Source: Saccoglossus kowalevskii (taxonomy: Eukaryota > Hemichordata > Enteropneusta > Harrimaniidae). Taken from it: a stretch of 23,664 nucleotides of DNA. The stretch is taken from positions 131,544-155,207 of the forward strand of contig NW_003121914.1 in assembly GCF_000003605.2 (NCBI RefSeq), given 5' to 3'. This document shows, in pieces, positions 8,386 to 22,795 of the stretch (its first letter is position 1; the number at the start of each line of letters is the position of its first letter). The position numbers were made by a program, and so were the translations under genes. The notes beneath the pieces were generated by a model. It saw only the letters and a program-made list of their open reading frames with translations, was not told the DNA's origin and ran no database searches.

Positions 8386-9851
8386 GGTGAGTATAATATT
8401 AAGCTTTCCCAAACATCCTGGTTGGCTGCACATCTATCAGTGAAAAAAGTGTACATACTGACCACTTGCCACATTCTTTGGATTCAGTGTTGGGAATATC
8501 GCGTCCAGTCGACGGGAACGAACAAACTGTCGATCCTGTGTGCTACCCATGTACGTGAACAAACACATCATTCTTAGCACAAAGAGCAGCAGATCGTTGC
8601 GGGGTGACTGGATAAACTGATCTAAATATTCACCAGGAAATGGGTGTCACAGCTTACGATTAACATTTTTTAATCGTAATGACCGAATAAATAATGGAAA
8701 AATGAACTGGTTCGTCTAAATTTGCCCTACATTTTTTTCTTTGAATATTTCATCACCGAACGTTTTTCTGTTTACATTTAGAAAAAAAAACGATTCGTAC
8801 ATTTCATTTGGTTTGGAGCTGACGTGGAGTTCAACAATATTGTACATAGTTTTTGATCAATCGTCTTTAAAAAATAACAGAATATTTTGCCAAAAAATAT
8901 TAGTTCAGAGATTATTATTCCAATTTGCGTATTTTCTTATACTCACATCTTTGATACTGAGATTGTGGTAGCGAACCTTCAATCATAAATGTCGACAGAA
9001 ATGAACATATGGGAAATATATTACTTGCATTGAGACGGAAAAATTGTCCAAGATTGCGTTCTCAGCCAATAATTACATGTTGGAGACTCAGTATTGCAAT
9101 CTTGCCAAGAAACTAATCGTTGGGCAGACATCGAAATTGTCACATGGACACATGGTTATTTTTCATGATTGCTTACATTTCTTACTCATTACACATTGCA
9201 GTGATTTATAAATTAATTTACGGCGGCTGTATGCCGGTACTTAATTGACTCTAATACTAACATTCACCGAGTAATAGAGCACTACTTGATACAAGCGTAT
9301 ACGTTAAGATGACGGTCCGTATATAAATATCTCAATCAAATCTCTCAGCTTATTGAAACAATTCATTGGTAAATTCCACAGCCCACGGTGGTATTTTTAG
9401 AGTTTGATTTGTACACAGTATTTTATGCTGGTTGCTTGTGGCATGTTATTGTGGGGTAAGATTCTTCGGGTGACGACAATATACACAATAGACAGCAGCT
9501 TGTTGACAGTTGAACAGATTTTTTGAAAACACTAATACAGTGATGGCAATGGTCGATTTATATAAATTCAGAATTTGGAAGTGTATCAATGACATCGTTA
9601 TCACTGGCCAATTAAGATCCGCTATGACTGGCTACTTTTCACATCCGGTCTTATGGGATTGGTCACATAATTGAGATGTATGATTGAGTGAGAGGACAAA
9701 ATGTCATCGTCTGTAATTGGTCTTATAGGGAAGACATATGATTGGATAAGATGTTGAAGGTATTATCCATAATTGTCACCATACTTGGTGATTTTGATTT
9801 TCAACAGTTATAATTGTTATATCTTTTTCGTCCCGCCACGCGGCGGATATG
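8386..9851. other. Non-coding, possible first intron
   Basis: AT-rich. No convincing exon. The open frame at 8741-8971 is low-complexity, rich in F, L and I. The only notable part is a cluster of four CCAAT boxes at 9608-9745. Confidence 0.4.
9608..9745. promoter_or_regulatory. Cluster of four CCAAT boxes within an imperfect duplication
   Basis: CCAAT at 9608-9612 and inverted copies (ATTGG) at 9658-9662, 9716-9720 and 9741-9745. The segments starting at 9658 and 9716 look like an imperfect duplication with about 58-bp spacing (both begin ATTGGTC and carry TATGATTG downstream). Could be a regulatory block or simply a local duplication in AT-rich DNA. Confidence 0.2.
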
Positions 9852-10191
9852 GTCGCCGTAGAGCACCATAGTCGTAGTGCAGCGCCACAGTCGTCTTGCA
9901 GCGTCATTGTCTTCGTGCAGCGCCACAGTCGCCGAGCAGTGTTACAGTCGTCACGCGGCACCAGTCGTCACATAGCGTCACAGTCGTCGTGAAGCGCTAT
10001 AGCCGTCATACAGTGCAAAAGTCGTCGTGAAGCGCTATGGCCGTCATACAGCGCAACAGTCGTCGTGAAGCGCTATGGCCGTCATACAGCGCAACAGTCG
10101 CCGTGAAGCGCTATAAGCGTCATACAGTGCAACAGTCGTCGCGAAGCGCTATGACCGTCATACAGCACAACAGTCGTCAGAGTATGACGTT
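9852..10191. repeat. 19-bp minisatellite with 38-bp higher-order repeats
   Basis: Seventeen complete units start at 9852, 9871, 9890, 9909, 9928, 9947 (17 bases), 9964, 9983, 10002, then every 19 bases to 10154, with a partial unit from 10173. Left units are varied single units of the type gtcgtcNtgcagcgccaca. From 9983 the array alternates gtcgtcgtgaagcgctatg and gccgtcatacagcgcaaca, giving a strict 38-bp period. It is much richer in GC and CpG than its surroundings. Because 19 is not a multiple of 3, open frames across it are by-products. Confidence 0.95.
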
Positions 10192-11097
10192 GTTGCGCTT
10201 TAATATTTCTACTGACATTATCTGGACATTGAGTTACGTCATGGTTAAACATTATCAGACGACAGTATATTATTTTGGTGCCTTCCATCGATCGGGCCTG
10301 AACGTAATACTAATGACAATATGAATGGCTTCAGCTCAAGTGCGTCTGATGTATTTGTTAAGAGTATCGCTTCAGAAGAAGGGCGAGTCCAATTCGATGG
10401 AGCATGCATACATTTTTAATAGCTGTTTACGATCGACTCTGTGTGTTGCCTGCATGTCTCGGAACGATACGCATGTACATGTTTTAGGCCCACGGCGTTC
10501 CACGATGAACAACCAGCACACATATTGTCACATTGATTACCTTCGTTTTAGGTTGATATTTTCACCACAGTCGTGGTTTCGTGTTTGGATAAGTTTTCAA
10601 TAGATGTTCACATGACCACCGCGTCTAATATCTATATAATAGAACATATTTCTGAATCATTTATCGTAGTGAGTTGTTATTTTTTCTATGACCCTTTATA
10701 TAATATTTATTTGTATTTTAGTTTGCATGTGTCGATTTTTTGTTTTTTCTTGTCGTTAATCAGTTCTTAAATTGGAGCCTCATACATACATCGGATTTTA
10801 ATCAGATTTAATCAGCAAAATTCCGATAAACATTGAAATAAATGTAGGTGAGTAGATGATTCAGCTACTATTTATTTAGTAGTTCTAATTAAAAGTCAGC
10901 GAATGGCATGGAAATATAATCGTAAAACAAGTTCAAACAAAAAGTTCTTGATACATGTGTAAATGAAAAAAAAAACTCGATTTAACATCGTCAACCCTTG
11001 ATCTATTGTTTCAATAGGATATTTTGCTCACAATTTTCAACGGAGATTCCTCATTTGCTGACTTACAAAATTTTGCTCACCGGATTTTGCCTACCAC
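10192..11097. other. Non-coding between minisatellite and assembly gap
   Basis: Only short open frames (10325-10603, 10573-10770) with no recognisable features. TTTTGCTCAC occurs twice close to the gap edge (11022-11085). Confidence 0.4.
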
Positions 11098-15737: not shown

Positions 15738-18700
15738 GTAATTTAACACGCACAACGGTACATACACGTTAATTCATCGTGAATACTAACGTTGTGTGAA
15801 TGTTCGTGTCCTGTTTACCAGATGTACAGTAACAGTGTATTTCTATCCCATGAATTGTGTGCACATACCGTTTTCCACATGTTTCGTAATTACGAGTATT
15901 TACGCCCCTATCATCATTTCGTACGTCAGCTCCATGTTCAGATATACCTAAATTACATCCTCTTGTGTCTTACAGTTTCAGATGTGATACCAAACGCACC
16001 CAGCTCTATTTACCTCATCAACTCATCTCCTATCTCAATTCAAGTTGGATGGAGTGCAGCTTGGGGACAGTTTGATGGCTACGACATTTCAGTGGCCCCA
16101 GACGATGGCTTTTCTTCTTTTGAATTTGTCGGTTTTGTGTTCAAGAACCAGCCAACACGGTATGTTGTCGAAGGCCTCATACCTGACACACAGTATAACG
16201 TAAAGATTGAGACATCCCTGGGTGCGGTCAAGAGTTCACCCGTCAGCATCGCACATTCGACAGGTATGTGGTAGAGCTTATTGGAACCCCTATATAACGG
16301 AACTGGCACGAGACGAAGATTTTCAGAAGTAAACACAGTTTCTTCTTCGCCGGAAATTTTTTTTAACCCAGAATCCGTCCATTCGACCACCAAGTCAGTA
16401 ACTTCAATGTATACATATTTGCATAATATTTTTATGGTTGATTTGCGTCTTCTGTCACGAACTTACTTATTTGTATCTTCGGTCCATTGTATTATTGACG
16501 CACGTGGTCACGGTGTTGCTGACGTCACAATAACGTAATGCATTGATTTCACATCCGTAGATAAAGGAGAACCGGCGTTTATGTACATCACTAAATTTAC
16601 AAGCAACAGTATTACGATCACCTGGAGTGACGGAGAATTTGGTGCTAATTTCACTGGATATCGTGTTATATATGGGTCAAACGAGGGGACGGCCGGGGAA
16701 TATCTCTTAGATGTGGATGCGACACGAGAAGTGAAGATTACTGGTTTGGCATCTGCCACTGAGTACAACATAACACTGGTTGTCACGGGTACTGACATTG
16801 AAAACGCTGTTTCGTCTTGGACAAGTAAGTAGTGGAAACACCTGATATATCCTGTCAGCAAGGCGTGTGACATACGTAAATTACATTTATCAAGAATATC
16901 GGAAGGAATATTTGGTAATGTTTATAGAAATTGATAGTTGATAATTGTAATCGTCCGAACAAGAAATAGACAGCCACAAATATTTCATTCACCGACGTAC
17001 AGAACGAATCGGTTCATGCTGCAATATCGACGATACCTAAAGGCCGTGTCTACACTAGAAACAAAATACACCGGCGTAAGTTGAGCCCGTAATGCACACG
17101 ATAAGATCATTATATCAGATAGGCATTCATGCATACATTTCTCTCGTTTGCCTACTTTATTCATTTCGACACAATCGATCATCTACTAGAAGGTATCTAC
17201 TAGTTCACATCAAATGGCCGTTAAATGTTATAATAGTATATATCTCGCGCAGATCTTGTGTTTAACAACAATTATAATGCTCAATGTAGGTTAATTTGTT
17301 ATAAATCTGGTCGCCAAGTGATGGCGTTAAAGCCACGTTTTGTGTTCACATCTGTTTTACGCCGGTGCAATTATTACTACTGGTTATACCAGTTGTGGTA
17401 TGTTCATGCACGCCGGTGTAACGTGTTCATACGTGTGTTCCCTTATGCCAGCGCAGGTTACGAGAGATGTGAACGCGATAATGTGAGTGTAGCTATATAC
17501 TCGATACTCATGTGTGTTATTATACATAACAGGACCTATCGCACCACGACGTGTATCAGCAACATTAACAACTTCCACTAGTATCAGTGTTTCCTGGCAG
17601 TCCCCATTGCAAGAAGTAGATGTGTACCACCTATCGTATTGGCCAAGTGAATATCCGAATAGCATATTGGTAAAGGAGATTGTTGAATCCACACCAAATG
17701 TGCACGTACAAATAACAAATCTTCAGCCTCTTACTGAGTATACAATCGAAGTCACTTCCGTAGTTGGGGATGATTCCAGGTCAATTCACAGCGATGTCAA
17801 AACAGTTGTGGCAACCACAGGTACGTTACGTGTGTCCACCAACACGGATTGATGGTGTTAATAATAGAAATAATATGACATGCATTGAAGCTATCCTGCA
17901 ATTATAATATATTGTATTTTTTTCAGATGGTAATAGGTGTATTCCGTATGACCCGTGTATGAATGGTGCTACGTGTATCCCTCATGGTAACCATGGTTTC
18001 ATCTGCAGCTGTACTGCTGGCTGGCACGGAGAGATATGTAGCCAAGGTATACACCATTCATGAACTGTTATTCGATAACGCATGTGTAGTGCAATGTACT
18101 AGAAAATTCAATCGAATCGTACAACGAGTTGCCGGAAATTATATCTAACATTACGTGTATGTTGCTTTGTAGCTACCAATCCTTGCATCAATACACCGTG
18201 TATGAATGACGGCGTATGTGTTCAAGTAACTGGTACTGATGGAGGGGAGTTTGAGTGTTTCTGTCTTCCGTCTTGGAGTGGCACACACTGCGAAACAGGT
18301 AATCCACAATACGTATATATAACAAAACCTCGTCAAAACAGAAAAGTTACGGAATAATCTTATTTTTATCGGTGAATTATTATTTCCGAATTTTCCATAT
18401 ATACACATTGAACTTAATATAGCTATATGTAGATGGCAACCGCATGTAAGCTTAGCCAGCTTACCGTCCTGTTATTTCATAACTCCTTCGGTCCTCTCAC
18501 AAACGAGTGAAGAGCCCATACAATAACAGAATGGTAACAAGGCTAAAGAAAATATACTGTATGATGGCATAGGAAGGGGCAACATTAATAGACGTCCATC
18601 TCTGGAACTTTGGAAAATCTCAAATGAACCTTTGTGCAAACACTTTGCTTTGTCCTCTCTATAATTATAGACACACCATTTACTAATTGTGTATTCTCAG

Positions 18701-21700
18701 CAGAGCTTACAGTAAGTGGATTATGTTCTAAAAATGTTTGTCTGAATGGTGGTACCTGCTTTGGTGACGTGCACAGTCACATATGTCAATGTCTAACTGG
18801 ATGGACTGGAGACAACTGCCAAATAGGTTAGTGATATGAATATTAATATACTGTTATGTTAACAGGTATGTTTATACGTTCTAAAGGATGGTGGTCGTTG
18901 TAAGGCATCGATATGCGACGAATACAGCCTTTATTTGCCGTTCCCTCACCCTGTAATGCATGTAAAATTGTTGGTAGTTTGATATTCATATGATATCCAT
19001 ATACATACTTTCAAAATTGATAATTAAAAATTACACATTTAAAAAAATTATTGGCATTCAACAATCAAAATGAATCACTCAATTCGAATAGTATTTCGGT
19101 CAAGCATTGCGTATTATATATTTGCAGACATAGGTGATCCATGTTCAAGTTATCCTTGTAAGAATAGTGCTGGATGTATAAATGGTAATAAGTTCTACAT
19201 TTGCCAATGTTTGGATGGATGGGCCGGCAGACAGTGCGATTTAGGTAATGTTATTTATATGTTTATTAATAAAGTTCTATGAATGTTTGTTTTCCAAATG
19301 TAATAATTTATTTATTATTATGTTTTAAAATATCAATTATTAAGCTGTTGTGTGTTTTTAGAAATATATACACTAAAGCACCTCTGTGGTCGGCCAATAT
19401 TCAATTTCACTGACCCACAGACTACCCTGAACTAATATTATCTGTATGAATCAACAAAGCTGAATATTGGGTTCCACCTTGATAACTTGTGTTCATTATA
19501 TTTAGAGATACACATGAGATAGCATATCAAATGTAAAAGTCAATATTATGGTATTATTTTCAGAAGGCGATATCTACACTGACTTTGCGGCATATCGCTT
19601 CCATAGAAGTAGTAATTTCAAGCCCATAATTGTGGATGTTACGCAAGACGAATGCATGGAATTGTGCTTAAACAACTCTGCATTTCTGTGCCGTTCAGTA
19701 AACTACGCCATATACGATCGAACTTGCTATCTGAGCAGTGAGAATGAATGGAGATCTGGTAGTGTTACACCTAGTGTGAATACACACTATTTTCAACGAA
19801 GAAGTACATGTACGTATAGTGTATATTGTAATGTGTCTTTTTTTCCGGTGATGTTATCATGTTCACGATATATTAGATTGAATCAGGAATGTATACTGTT
19901 TTTCCCGTTTTTTCTTAATCAGACGTTGTGTGTGTGGAAGGATTATTCCAGTGCTGGAACGGAAATCAGTGTGTTTCTGGTGAAAGGCAATGTGACGCTG
20001 TATCTTACGACTGTGGCGATTCTTCTGACGAACATGATGAAATTTGTGGTATGTGGATTTGAAATTCTTTACTTTCTACGGTTGTATTCATTCTATGTGA
20101 CATATATAATCATCTACATTGGTCTATTTATGTAGGAACGTGTGAATTGGAATTACAGACACCACTAACAACAAGAAATGGGTGGGTTACGTATCCAGTG
20201 CAGTCTGAAATATACAACAGTCACGCGTCCTGCACGTGGGTTATTTCGGGACCAGTAGGTTTGTAACGATCAACTAATGTAGTCGAATAACTACTTCAAA
20301 ACAGTAACCAAACTAAAGGTAACGTCTGAACCTATGTGCTGTTGTTGATATGGAAATAATTTCTCAAAAAGAAAGAAAACAAATTTATTTATGCGTTTAT
20401 TTAGATACACGTGTTTCATTCAAGATCTACTCAATCGAGATGGAGGGCTGTCTTAGCTCAAAAGATGGATGTATATTTGACTATGTCGAGGTATGGGATG
20501 GTGTACCAAGTTCAAAATCTATTCTCAAATATTGCTCTTCGCAAATCCCGCCGATGAAGGTAAATATATACACCTAGTATGTGTCGCAACCCCAAAGTGT
20601 TTGTTTCATAGTGATTCCATGTAAGGTTAACAATAGTATTACGGACAACATTTAAGAAAAATGAAATTTGAAGTTTGAATATGTATATTTTTTCTAAATT
20701 TAAGATTACGCTTTATTACATTAACGTTACAGCACTGATAGCTTATTCTTAAATATTCAATTGATTGTTACATCCATGTTTACTAAATAAACAGTGGCAT
20801 TTCACTTCTTCATTTCTAAAACCTTGTTTACGCGTGCCTATAACGCTGTATTAAGTTTTACTTCATTGAACCTTTTACATATTGTTGAAGGAAAGACATT
20901 AAAGGTTTATTTTTTCTACAAGGCCAGAAAGGGATTATATAAATCAAACATTTCTTCTGTTTACAATTTTGCTTCATATAACTATCTTTAAAATGCAGTA
21001 AATGTAATGATTTGTGTAAAACTCCGGTAGGATAAACTGCGACTTACCAGAAATTATACAGATTTGACGAGCATAATCTAGCGACTAGGATGTTAAAAAT
21101 ATGTAATTTATTCAAAAACAATATATATCTTCTAAACCACTTCTTTGTTTCGATTTATTGTATGGAGACCAAAGGAGCGAAACCACCTCGACAGTACAGG
21201 ACAAATAAAGCCTTCAAATTAGTTCAAATTTATAAATTAGTTGCATATCTATTTTTCGAGGGATTGATTTACATCAATCACGTGATTACATTGGTGAAAT
21301 AATGCGGTTTGGTTAAACGTCTAATGAGCATTCAAAGACCATTTAATTTTCAGAACAAGGTCCAGAGATACAGTGACAAGTACATCAGTTCGTAAGGGTG
21401 TAAATGTATTATCATTTAACAACATATCAACACATATTGTGACTTGTATGCATATTCCGTAAACTAATCTCGAGTAATGATTTGATTGCAGATTTACATA
21501 TCCACCACAAACGAGGTCACAGTCAATTTTGTATCTGATTTTGCAACTGAAATGCATGGATTTAATATTTACTATGAAATCATTGGTAGCCAGGCTTGTC
21601 CACGAACATTTGGATATGACTTAGGAACTTATCCACTCTCAAATCAAGACTATGAAGGGGTGTTCCTTGACACCGGTCTTCAAGTACCTTGTTCCGGGTA

Positions 21701-22795
21701 CATAACGTCTTGGAGGATTATACCTGGAGACGATTTAGAAGGGGTTGTGATATTGACAATGTTATTGTTTCGTCAAGTGGACGGTGGATTTTTAGTTGTG
21801 TCTTCGAGTGACATTAATATAAGGGAAAATGTTTCAGGCGAACTTGTAATCCAAATTGGAAATGAAGATAGGATACCATGTAAAGAGGGCGATATTATCG
21901 GTAAGTGAATTGTATCTTCACACATATATATATACAGTATCATTGGATGCCGTACATGTATGCACATTTTCGATTGTGTTTTGTTTTAGGGTGGTCGTGC
22001 AAAAACGGATGCCCGATGAAATCAGCGTATTTAGATAACTGTCCACATAGGCATACTCTTCTGAGAAGTTTGATATCATCACCAGAAGATGTGGAATTAG
22101 ATAGTGTCTTGTCGTTTGAGAATGCGCAAGTTTTAGGTGTCGCAACGGCTATTTCAGTGGGACTTCAGGCAGGTGAGTTTCATGTGATCAGCAGACAGAT
22201 CCCCGTCTGTAAAATACTGCCACATACATACTCCTGGCATTATTGACAACTGTGCAATTGTTTACATGTCTTATGGAAAGAATGGATTAAATACCCTACA
22301 ACTTCTAAAAAATCACATACTAATATGTAAACGTCAACCGATATACATAATTATCACAATAATACTCGAAGCGTATACCATATAACTACTTCATATAACT
22401 ACTTTCCTACCATCAGACGAAGCCTGTTGTAGAATATTAATTTATTATAAAAGGCACAGCTTGCACCATCTGTGTTTAACGCTAATTTGATTTAGATTGA
22501 AGTCTGCAAAGACGATGGTCAGCGGTCGTCTATAGTTTTTTTGCTGTTGTATACATTCCAGAATGTGCATTGACTGGGACTACATCAGGATGTGACGGAG
22601 TTAAGTTTTTGAATGATTCGTCTTGTATCGATTATCTATCTACTCCAAATCACCCCGAGATTTATGATGTTAACCTGAATTGTACCTGGATCTTAGAAGT
22701 GCCCGTCGAAGAGTATGTTATCCTTACAATAGAATACTTTGATGTTGGATCAAGCACTGACGGGATATGCACGGATTATCTCCAGATTATGGAAG
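15674..22795 (+). CDS. Mosaic extracellular protein: signal peptide-FN3x3-EGFx4-PAN-LDLa-CUB-unnamed module-CUB (3' incomplete)
   Basis: I joined 15 coding exons: 15674-15737, 15976-16263, 16561-16824, 17533-17820, 17927-18046, 18173-18298, 18701-18826, 19128-19244, 19564-19809, 19923-20048, 20136-20258, 20405-20559, 21492-21900, 21990-22172 and 22562-22795. They total 2869 bases, keep one frame without a stop for 956 codons, and every intron is GT-AG. Phases are all 1 except the intron after 20559 (phase 0), inside CUB1. Most modules match one exon exactly. Introns are 87-932 bases; those at 18299-18700, 18827-19127, 19245-19563 and 22173-22561 show nothing else of note. The product should enter the secretory pathway and act outside the cell or at its surface, in adhesion, matrix or ligand binding. 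Exact function and ortholog not recognised. The C-terminus lies beyond the window. Confidence 0.85.
15976..16263 (+). CDS. FN3 module 1 exon (residues 22-117)
   Basis: A fibronectin type III domain on one phase 1-1 exon of 288 bases. The B-strand tryptophan is in IQVGW (W47), the C-strand tyrosine in FDGYDI (Y57), and the E-F turn and F-strand signature GLIPDTQYNVKI (88-99) is typical. A possible N-glycosylation site is N37-S-S. The acceptor is a tandem: TTACAG before 15976 and TTTCAG before 15982. Both keep the frame; using the second drops residues V22-S23. The donor is GTATGT. Confidence 0.92.
16561..16824 (+). CDS. FN3 module 2 exon (residues 118-205)
   Basis: Single-exon FN3 domain of 264 bases, phase 1-1. 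Signature positions: ITITW (W139), FTGYRVIY (Y151) and VKITGLASATEYNITLV (175-191). Possible N-glycosylation sites at N147 (NFT) and N187 (NIT). The acceptor is CCGTAG and the donor is the consensus GTAAGT after ACAA. Confidence 0.92.
16825..17532. other. Intron between FN3-2 and FN3-3, with dispersed-repeat fragments
   Basis: This 708-base intron holds CCGGYG-type motifs: CACCGGCGTAA near 17070, ACGCCGGTGCAA near 17359, ACGCCGGTGTAA near 17411, and a degenerate GCCAGCGCAGGTTA near 17448. The segment GTGTTCACATCTGTTTT (17342-17358) followed by ACGCCGGTGCAA has a relative at 7336-7370. Also a short hairpin ACTGGTTATACCAGT near 17379. This suggests remnants of a mobile or dispersed repeat. Confidence 0.45.
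17533..17820 (+). CDS. FN3 module 3 exon (residues 206-301)
   Basis: Single-exon FN3 of 288 bases, phase 1-1, the same length as FN3-1. Signature positions: ISVSW (W227), VYHLSYW (Y237, Y241) and VQITNLQPLTEYTIEVTS (264-281). The acceptor ATAACAG has a weak pyrimidine tract, but the frame and domain boundary fix it. The donor is GTACGT. Confidence 0.92.
17927..18046 (+). CDS. EGF-like module 1 exon (residues 302-341)
   Basis: EGF domain of 40 residues on one phase 1-1 exon. Six cysteines at 306, 312, 318, 328, 330 and 339 in the usual 1-6 spacing, with CMNGATC and CSCTAGWHGEIC. It lacks the N-terminal D-x-D/N-E/Q calcium-binding motif. The acceptor ATTTTTTTCAG is strong. Confidence 0.93.
18173..18298 (+). 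CDS. EGF-like module 2 exon (residues 342-383)
   Basis: EGF domain, phase 1-1, six cysteines at 346, 351, 357, 370, 372 and 381. The loop between cysteines 3 and 4 is longer than in its neighbours (VQVTGTDGGEFE). The CFCLPSWSGTHC end is typical. No calcium-binding EGF signature. Confidence 0.93.
18701..18826 (+). CDS. EGF-like module 3 exon (residues 384-425)
   Basis: EGF domain, phase 1-1, cysteines at 392, 397, 403, 412, 414 and 423, with CLNGGTC and CQCLTGWTGDNC. A short linker (AELTVSGL) precedes it. The acceptor is a NAGNAG tandem (CTCAG-CAG): exon start 18701 or 18704, the latter losing only A384. The donor GTTAGT is weaker than its neighbours. Confidence 0.93.
19128..19244 (+). CDS. 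EGF-like module 4 exon (residues 426-464)
   Basis: EGF domain, phase 1-1, cysteines at 431, 436, 442, 451, 453 and 462 (CKNSAGC and CQCLDGWAGRQC). The usual N-G-G between cysteines 2 and 3 is N-S-A-G here. The donor is GTAATG. Confidence 0.93.
19564..19809 (+). CDS. PAN/apple module exon (residues 465-546)
   Basis: A PAN/apple-type domain on one phase 1-1 exon of 246 bases. The core shows four cysteines: TQDECMELC (C495, C499), FLCRSVNYA (C507) and RTCYLS (C519), the arrangement of the PAN_1 helix-plus-strand core, which is stabilised by two disulfides. Such domains bind protein or carbohydrate ligands. A possible N-glycosylation site is N501 (NNS). The open frame continues into the intron after the donor GTACGT at 19810 but loses family character there. 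Confidence 0.85.
19923..20048 (+). CDS. LDL-receptor class A module exon (residues 547-588)
   Basis: LDLa repeat, phase 1-1, six cysteines at 550, 557, 563, 570, 577 and 588. Typical FQCWNGNQC, CDAVSYDC and the calcium-site end DSSDEHDEIC (D582, E583). The spacing between the fourth and fifth cysteines (DAVSYD) is slightly longer than the common CDGxxDC. Too short to stand out as an open frame by itself; its frame differs from the open frame covering the preceding intron. Confidence 0.92.
20136..20258 (+). CDS. CUB module 1, first exon (residues 589-629)
   Basis: Start of a CUB domain: first cysteine C591, the loop NGWVTYPVQSEIYNSHASC with the YP..Y pattern, and CTWVI (C621, W623). Acceptor TTATGTAG; donor GTTTGT is weak. 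Short, but its phase links LDLa to the following exon exactly. Confidence 0.88.
20405..20559 (+). CDS. CUB module 1, second exon (residues 630-681)
   Basis: The middle of CUB1: CIFDYVEVWDG (C652, D655) and LKYCSSQIP (C673). An extra cysteine, C645, in EMEGCLSSKDGC may be unpaired or form an additional bridge. E643 and D655 occupy the places of calcium-site acids in calcium-binding CUBs. The exon enters in phase 1 and ends in phase 0, the only non-phase-1 junction in the gene. Confidence 0.9.
20560..21491. other. Longest intron (932 bases), inside CUB1
   Basis: AT-rich, begins GTAAAT and ends TTGCAG. Contains only short open frames (20794-20991, 21090-21302) with no domain character. Because CUB1 continues without loss across the splice (PPMK joined to IYISTTNE), no exon is missing here. 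Confidence 0.7.
21492..21900 (+). CDS. End of CUB1 fused to first part of an unnamed module (residues 682-817)
   Basis: The largest exon (409 bases). Residues 682-711 finish CUB1: the strand VTVNFVSDF with D697 at a calcium-site position, then HGFNIYYEI, the usual CUB end. Residues from about 713 form another module: ACPRTFGYDLG, a PCSGYITSW turn (C748, W755), LLFRQVDGGFLVV (772-784), and EDRIPCKEGDII at the end. It reads as alternating beta strands. I recall similar GDVIGW modules in uncharacterised invertebrate extracellular proteins but cannot name a family. The donor GTAAGT splits the GDIIGW motif. Confidence 0.88.
21990..22172 (+). CDS. Second part of the unnamed module (residues 818-878)
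   Basis: Begins with GWSCKNGC, completing GDIIGW (814-819), then a cysteine cluster (C821, C825, C835) and a regular stretch ending VLGVATAISVGLQA, which looks like the last beta strands of the same fold. Phase 1 at both ends, acceptor TTGTTTTAG, donor GTGAGT. The module with CUB1 spans 20136-22172 and is phase 1 at both ends as a block. Confidence 0.85.
22379..22404. repeat. 13-bp perfect tandem duplication in intron
   Basis: CATATAACTACTT occurs twice in direct succession (22379-22391 and 22392-22404). Confidence 0.85.
22562..22795 (+). CDS. CUB module 2, first exon (residues 879-956, incomplete)
   Basis: Starts phase 1 after ATTCCAG. Clear CUB pattern: YLSTPNHPEIYDVNLNCTWILEV (C919, W921), VILTIEYFDVG, CTDYLQIMEG (C948, D950). 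The position normally holding the calcium-site glutamate after FDV is glycine (G941), so this CUB probably lacks a full calcium site. Extra cysteines C880, C889 and C900 precede the core. The donor GTACGC at 22796 interrupts the EG motif; without splicing the frame stops at TAG 22822-22824, about 30 residues short of a full CUB. The rest must lie beyond the window. Possible N-glycosylation at N918 (NCT). Confidence 0.85.

Follow-up and report, generated by a model that had tools for sequence, protein, structure and literature searches.

Among described proteins, those closest to the gene treated here are the GRL101-like receptors (type C2 of the leucine-rich-repeat G-protein-coupled receptors, LGRs) and the polycystin-1/REJ family. 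Besides GRL101 of the snail Lymnaea, GRL101-like receptors with C-type lectin (CTL), LDL and leucine-rich-repeat (LRR) parts have been described in the snail Biomphalaria (the SudRes2 genes; PMC12297450), GRL101-like genes forming a cluster at a snail locus linked to resistance to schistosomes, and the word 'CUB' occurs zero times in the main text of that account. In two further papers, GRL101 is termed an orphan receptor (PMC11863921, from 2025) and the insulin-like growth factor is proposed as its ligand (PMC8286064). For the polycystin side, the available part of the description of the sea urchin SpREJ family (PMC1934368) holds no mention that we saw of the module reported below. Here we analyse a stretch of 23,664 nucleotides from the hemichordate Saccoglossus kowalevskii (assembly GCF_000003605.2, contig NW_003121914.1, forward strand, positions 131,544 to 155,207), called the window throughout, which carries a piece of a multi-exon gene on the plus strand. 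Between the two CUB domains of this gene lies a module of 165 residues which, judged by its relatives in the same genome, is one copy of a genuine recurring animal extracellular domain, about 165 residues long, and this family is unlisted in Pfam.

When spliced, positions 21492-21900 and 21990-22172 translate into the C-terminal end of CUB1, followed by the 165-residue module (SQACPR...ISVGLQA), of which residue 1 is residue 714 of the protein, G713 standing just before it. The module and its intron are laid out as follows (the window copy itself is included in the profile that gives the two bit scores):

21585 to 21900, plus strand: first exon part of the module, residues 713-817 (GSQACPR ... 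KEGDII) and base 1 of the G818 codon (seven-copy profile, 117.9 bits)
21901 to 21989, plus strand: phase-1 intron of 89 bases, GT..AG, splitting GDIIG/W (splice consensus)
21990 to 22172, plus strand: second exon part of the module, the rest of G818 and WSCKNGC ... ISVGLQA to residue 878, with a phase-1 donor at its end (seven-copy profile, 56.9 bits)

An earlier sequence-only reading had placed such a module between CUB1 and CUB2, and the translation and splicing of both exon parts bear this out. The interval that it gave (21585 to 22172) does hold the module; as continuous coding sequence the interval fails, since the 89-base phase-1 intron cuts the G-W of GDIIGW. The cysteines that it listed (717, 748, 811, 821, 825 and 835) are all in place, at module positions 4, 35, 98, 108, 112 and 122, and each of its landmarks (PCSGYITSW, FRQVDGG, EDRIPCKEGDIIGW and ATAISVGL) is found in the translation.

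The evidence that the module recurs comes from searches of its own genome (572 Mb in 4830 contigs, the one animal genome searched; copy counts are lower bounds), made with the copies of the window and of loci C1938, C653 (copy b of its tandem pair, C653b), C561 and C449 as queries. The window module returned six rows, namely the two exons of the query itself, C1938 (E 4.7e-6), C561 (0.06), C3325 (0.13) and C653 (1.9), the last three being weak alone and tied in through the later searches and profiles. The C1938 query connected most of the set (C3325, 4e-7; C653a, 8e-7; window, 8e-5; C561, 1e-3; C653b, 2e-3), and the C653b query found C653a (1e-12), C449 (2.5e-6), C1938 (3e-3), C561 (0.02) and the window (1.1). 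With the C561 copy, the matches to C3325, C1938, C653a and the window ranged from 3e-4 to 0.04, and the C449 copy recovered the C653 pair (2e-7 and 5e-6) along with a weak row at C1005 (E 0.29), which contains a stop and was left out of the copy count. A profile made from the seven copies was run against 4607 reading frames of the loci and identified the module exons together with a further C653 copy, the third, which an intron splits (E 1e-4 and 0.05), all remaining rows being at E 0.58 or worse. Scored against a profile of the six other copies, the window module reached 54.6 bits, the best of its shuffled versions reaching 6.4 (hmmsearch reported 1389 of the 2000 shuffles). The same leave-one-out procedure gave 33.3-82.0 bits for all seven copies, with best reported shuffles of 6.4-15.6 (1389-1892 of 2000 reported per copy; the third C653 copy stood outside this test). 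Because the copies had been chosen by similarity, this comparison is not blind, and the genome E-values are its independent counterpart. Within 80 kb of the window's contig, of which 39,542 of 80,000 bases are N, no further copy better than E 2.2 was found.

The copies are strongly diverged (the window copy shares 18-29% identity with the others) and nevertheless keep a common framework. Five residues are invariant across the seven copies (G9, W42, R62, I76 and D102, in window numbering, the last being the D of GD.IG), within a family consensus of the form PC.G.VVGW.F ... F.VG..R ... LVGE..I ... I.F..GDVIG, so that the recurrence of a domain with GD.IGW landmarks, proposed by the sequence-only reading, is seen in the relatives. 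Segments of the GDVIGW type presumably occur in invertebrate polycystin-like proteins as well. Since Cys4 and Cys35 occur together (in six of the seven copies) and vanish together (in C561), we infer a disulphide between them, and an additional C-x3-C-x9-C after GD.IGW is common to the window and C1938. The window, C1938, C561 and C3325 agree in the codon at which an intron splits GD.IG/W, whereas C653a, C653b and C449 read through this point in one open frame; the four CUB-associated copies therefore look like a subfamily. Class 1-1 exons are a hallmark of shuffled extracellular modules. As read from the splice consensus, and with the third C653 copy outside the count, a phase-1 donor follows all seven copies and a phase-1 acceptor precedes six of them; the window copy is the one without a 5' intron, being fused to the last CUB1 exon. 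The AlphaFold model of the window's first exon part is a beta-sandwich (pLDDT 81.6, pTM 0.72), in agreement with the beta-rich fold anticipated from the letters, and the module most likely folds as a disulphide-stapled, jelly-roll-like beta-sandwich.

Searches of the described families left the module without a name. The window copy matched zero Pfam families even at E 10, the flanking exon giving CUB; when the 275-residue spliced protein was scanned, the module by itself gave no match to PF00431 (CUB). Among the other copies scanned at E 10 (C653a and C653b, and the first-exon part of C1938, C561 and C3325), three of the five gave rows below the cut-off (best E 0.027) and two gave none, and zero families were obtained at E 0.05 for the C449 copy and for most of the third C653 copy. 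The window copy had no match in NCBIfam, and nothing better than E 0.58 came from the PDB sequences, either with this copy or in the other searches of this kind. Across the Pfam search of the seven copies there is thus no match at the cut-off, as the absence of a named family had been claimed, and the view of the module as an unnamed, beta-rich, recurring extracellular domain is supported. PHROGs returned two weak rows (E 0.038 and 0.043), each in one of seven members. In the literature, the string 'gdvigw' was absent from the texts searched, and neither anything on the module nor GRL101 together with a CUB domain was found among the matches listed. Although the CUB domain provides a similar extracellular context, flanking the module as it does, the two differ in length (165 residues against about 110 for the Pfam CUB model), in their conserved residues and in the lack of a Pfam CUB match for the module.

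The loci that carry the module fall in more than one kind of gene. At C1938 a CUB end (just under the Pfam cut-off) precedes the module, and an exon similar to CUB2 (L012 2369-2638, by eye) follows it. Next on the 3' side are three CUBs recognised by Pfam and a segment that by eye resembles EGF, then two Lectin_C matches below the cut-off, the LDLa repeats and an LRRNT match that is likewise below the cut-off; this locus contains gaps of 79 N in L027 and 4149 N in L036. Farther upstream at the same locus (L028 4067-7573) we observed a Kringle (4.5e-21), an EGF, an Xlink (1.5e-16) and, below the cut-off, a match to chitin-binding type 1 (2.7e-4), a mix that would be unusual if it is part of one LGR ectodomain. 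In C561 and C3325 a Pfam CUB follows the module, and then come CUB-like and EGF-like exons, the order in C3325 being CUB, EGF-like, CUB-like and C-type-lectin-domain (CTLD)-like; except for one tblastn match, these CUB-, EGF- and CTLD-like exons are by-eye assignments that carry no Pfam scores. C653 is of another kind: besides the tandem pair it holds the third copy, making three, and an open frame of 1125 residues that matches PKD (E 2e-19) and REJ (E 1e-26) (L030 3097-4555 and L037 1799-5173). On account of these PKD and REJ domains this gene is of the polycystin-1/REJ type, the order and strand of the exons suggesting that they belong to a single gene, and in this it differs from the window gene, whose scanned exons are without PKD or REJ. 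At C449, the module is followed after about 500 bases, on its own strand, by a Methyltransf_FA match (E 5e-6; L018 407-883, minus strand).

We consider it fairly probable that the module, an animal domain some 165 residues long for which Pfam has no model, folds as a beta-sandwich, was shuffled as a class 1-1 exon unit and serves as a recognition module in receptor ectodomains. The family, its boundaries and intron phases (from splice consensus), its absence from Pfam and the prediction of a beta-sandwich are established by the results above; the recognition role is favoured because the reuse of the module in two receptor classes, its class 1-1 mobility, its sandwich fold and its company of CUB and CTLD all fit it. 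In the mechanism that we propose, the module would have spread through exon shuffling as a class 1-1 unit; in the window gene it separates CUB1 from CUB2, in what would be the distal ectodomain of a probable GRL101-like receptor. The exposed loop end of the sandwich may bind a ligand (glycan or protein) or a domain next to it, and by analogy with CUB, C-type-lectin and carbohydrate-binding-module (CBM)-like modules it might help to present the bound ligand to the receptor.

A serious rival, which we nevertheless hold to be the less probable choice, is that the module is a structural spacer or cap which has no outside ligand, packs CUB1 against CUB2 and sets the shape of the ectodomain. Such a role would suit the CUB neighbours of the module, which flank it in the window and C1938 and follow it in C561 and C3325, and also the low overall conservation, in which the invariant G9, W42, R62, I76 and D102 look structural. 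However, the module also occurs outside CUB contexts, in tandem in the PKD/REJ-type gene and near the Methyltransf_FA match, and this speaks against a function bound to the packing of CUBs. We regard it as similarly doubtful that the module belongs, as a far-diverged member, to a known jelly-roll group (galactose-binding-like, as in F5/8 type C and CBM6-36-32, or TNF/C1q-like) beyond the reach of the Pfam models. The VIA-align rows of both predicted models include many such sandwiches, and none of the copies has a Pfam row for the F5/8 type C or CBM families, nor does the seven-copy profile (A9) match any PDB sequence at E 10.

Besides the module, the exons of the window gene comprise the following domains (Pfam families found: three FN3, four EGF, one PAN, one LDLa and two CUB):

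15978 to 16271 (approximate exon), plus strand: fibronectin type III (FN3) domain 1, Pfam fn3 E 1.9e-10
16539 to 16829 (approximate exon), plus strand: fibronectin type III domain 2, Pfam fn3 E 7.9e-9
17535 to 17849 (approximate exon), plus strand: fibronectin type III domain 3, Pfam fn3 E 2e-12
17911-18060, 18169-18309, 18679-18828 and 19121-19246, plus strand: four EGF-like domains, one per exon, Pfam EGF E 7e-8, 2.5e-4, 1e-7 and 1e-5
19560 to 19812, plus strand: PAN/apple domain, Pfam PAN_1 E 1.2e-10
19922 to 20047, plus strand: LDL-receptor class A (LDLa) domain, Pfam Ldl_recept_a E 7e-6
20136-20258, 20405-20559 and 21492-21584, plus strand: CUB1 in three exon pieces, from translation and splice consensus
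22562 to 22795, plus strand: first exon of CUB2, Pfam CUB E 2.3e-8

For CUB1 the Pfam basis is the 275-residue spliced protein, with its two CUB stretches, and hence the last CUB1 piece, the stretch printed there being that of CUB2. The first exon of CUB2 resembles the CUB exons that follow the module in C3325 (E 2e-11) and C561 (E 5e-11; both in a five-locus database). Elsewhere in the window, positions 9798-10200 hold open frames that overlap and encode a repeating peptide of the type SAxxVIQxxSRREALWPSYSATV, apparently a non-coding tandem repeat.

Downstream of the window, across 10.6 kb of N and on the same strand, locus L003 (G000:C1468:165208-175207) encodes a Pfam CTLD, seven LDLa-like exons (three of three scanned were confirmed), five LRR-like frames (by eye) and a seven-transmembrane region whose best PDB matches are TSHR (6e-38), LHR, FSHR and RXFP1 (2e-28). 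L003 is a GRL101-like receptor: its CTLD, LDLa-like exons, LRR-like frames and LGR-type seven-transmembrane region form the combination of the snail SudRes2 genes. Because the N gap separates the window from L003, the identity of the window gene is a matter of inference, and the gene probably supplies the N-terminal portion of an LGR receptor that is GRL101-like (type C2). If joined in this way, the window side would add FN3, EGF, PAN, CUB and the unnamed module N-terminally to the described parts. That the window gene instead stands by itself and encodes an FN3-EGF-PAN-LDLa-CUB protein, either secreted or with a single membrane pass, the downstream receptor being another gene, seems to us unlikely. 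The 10.6 kb of N leaves room for two genes, and the collinearity of L003 with C1938 is broken by its CTLD exon (no match there at E 1e-3) and by LDLa 1 (best match out of order). On the other side, the window gene and L003 share a strand; C1938 runs on one strand from CUB-module-CUB to further CUBs and to CTLD-like, LDLa and LRRNT-like exons; and C3325, mostly by eye, also runs through CUB, EGF-like, CUB-like and CTLD-like exons after the module. In a four-locus database, L003 exon 789-1088 matched C1938 at E 1e-21, and LDLa 2-7 were matched there as well with their order kept. Beyond the receptor, L005 (G000:C1468:185208-195207) shows, by eye, ankyrin-like repeats and then hydrophobic frames resembling a transient receptor potential (TRP) channel gene.

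Two further explanations can be set aside. We reject chance or linker sequence, since the module has homologous copies and a predicted fold and scores far above its shuffled versions. A prokaryotic, viral, phage or plasmid origin is likewise rejected, the searches having listed no relatives: pattern scans with the two-copy alignment A6, which reach close relatives only, gave 70 stretches of prokaryotic genome contigs and 19 of viral contigs with zero relatives in either; the phage search gave 2 records at E 0.8 only (one phage under two accessions, at a RecF-like gene); and no plasmid relatives were found with the module. In another scan of the viral contigs, one stretch encodes a close relative; it may be host DNA, from this genome or a near one, that was sorted among the viral sequences.

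Extracellular modules are the vocabulary of animal receptors, and the omission of this one from Pfam leaves an annotation gap where the ligands of receptors are unknown. A bolder and more tentative possibility is that we are dealing with an undescribed domain family common to LGR/GRL101-like receptors and polycystin-1-type proteins, which gives both a shared recognition of extracellular (perhaps glycan) ligands; if this is true, naming the family would annotate a large blind spot in the giant receptor ectodomains of invertebrates. As a module common to GRL101-like receptors and a polycystin-1-type protein, it offers a concrete, expressible unit with which to search for ligands.
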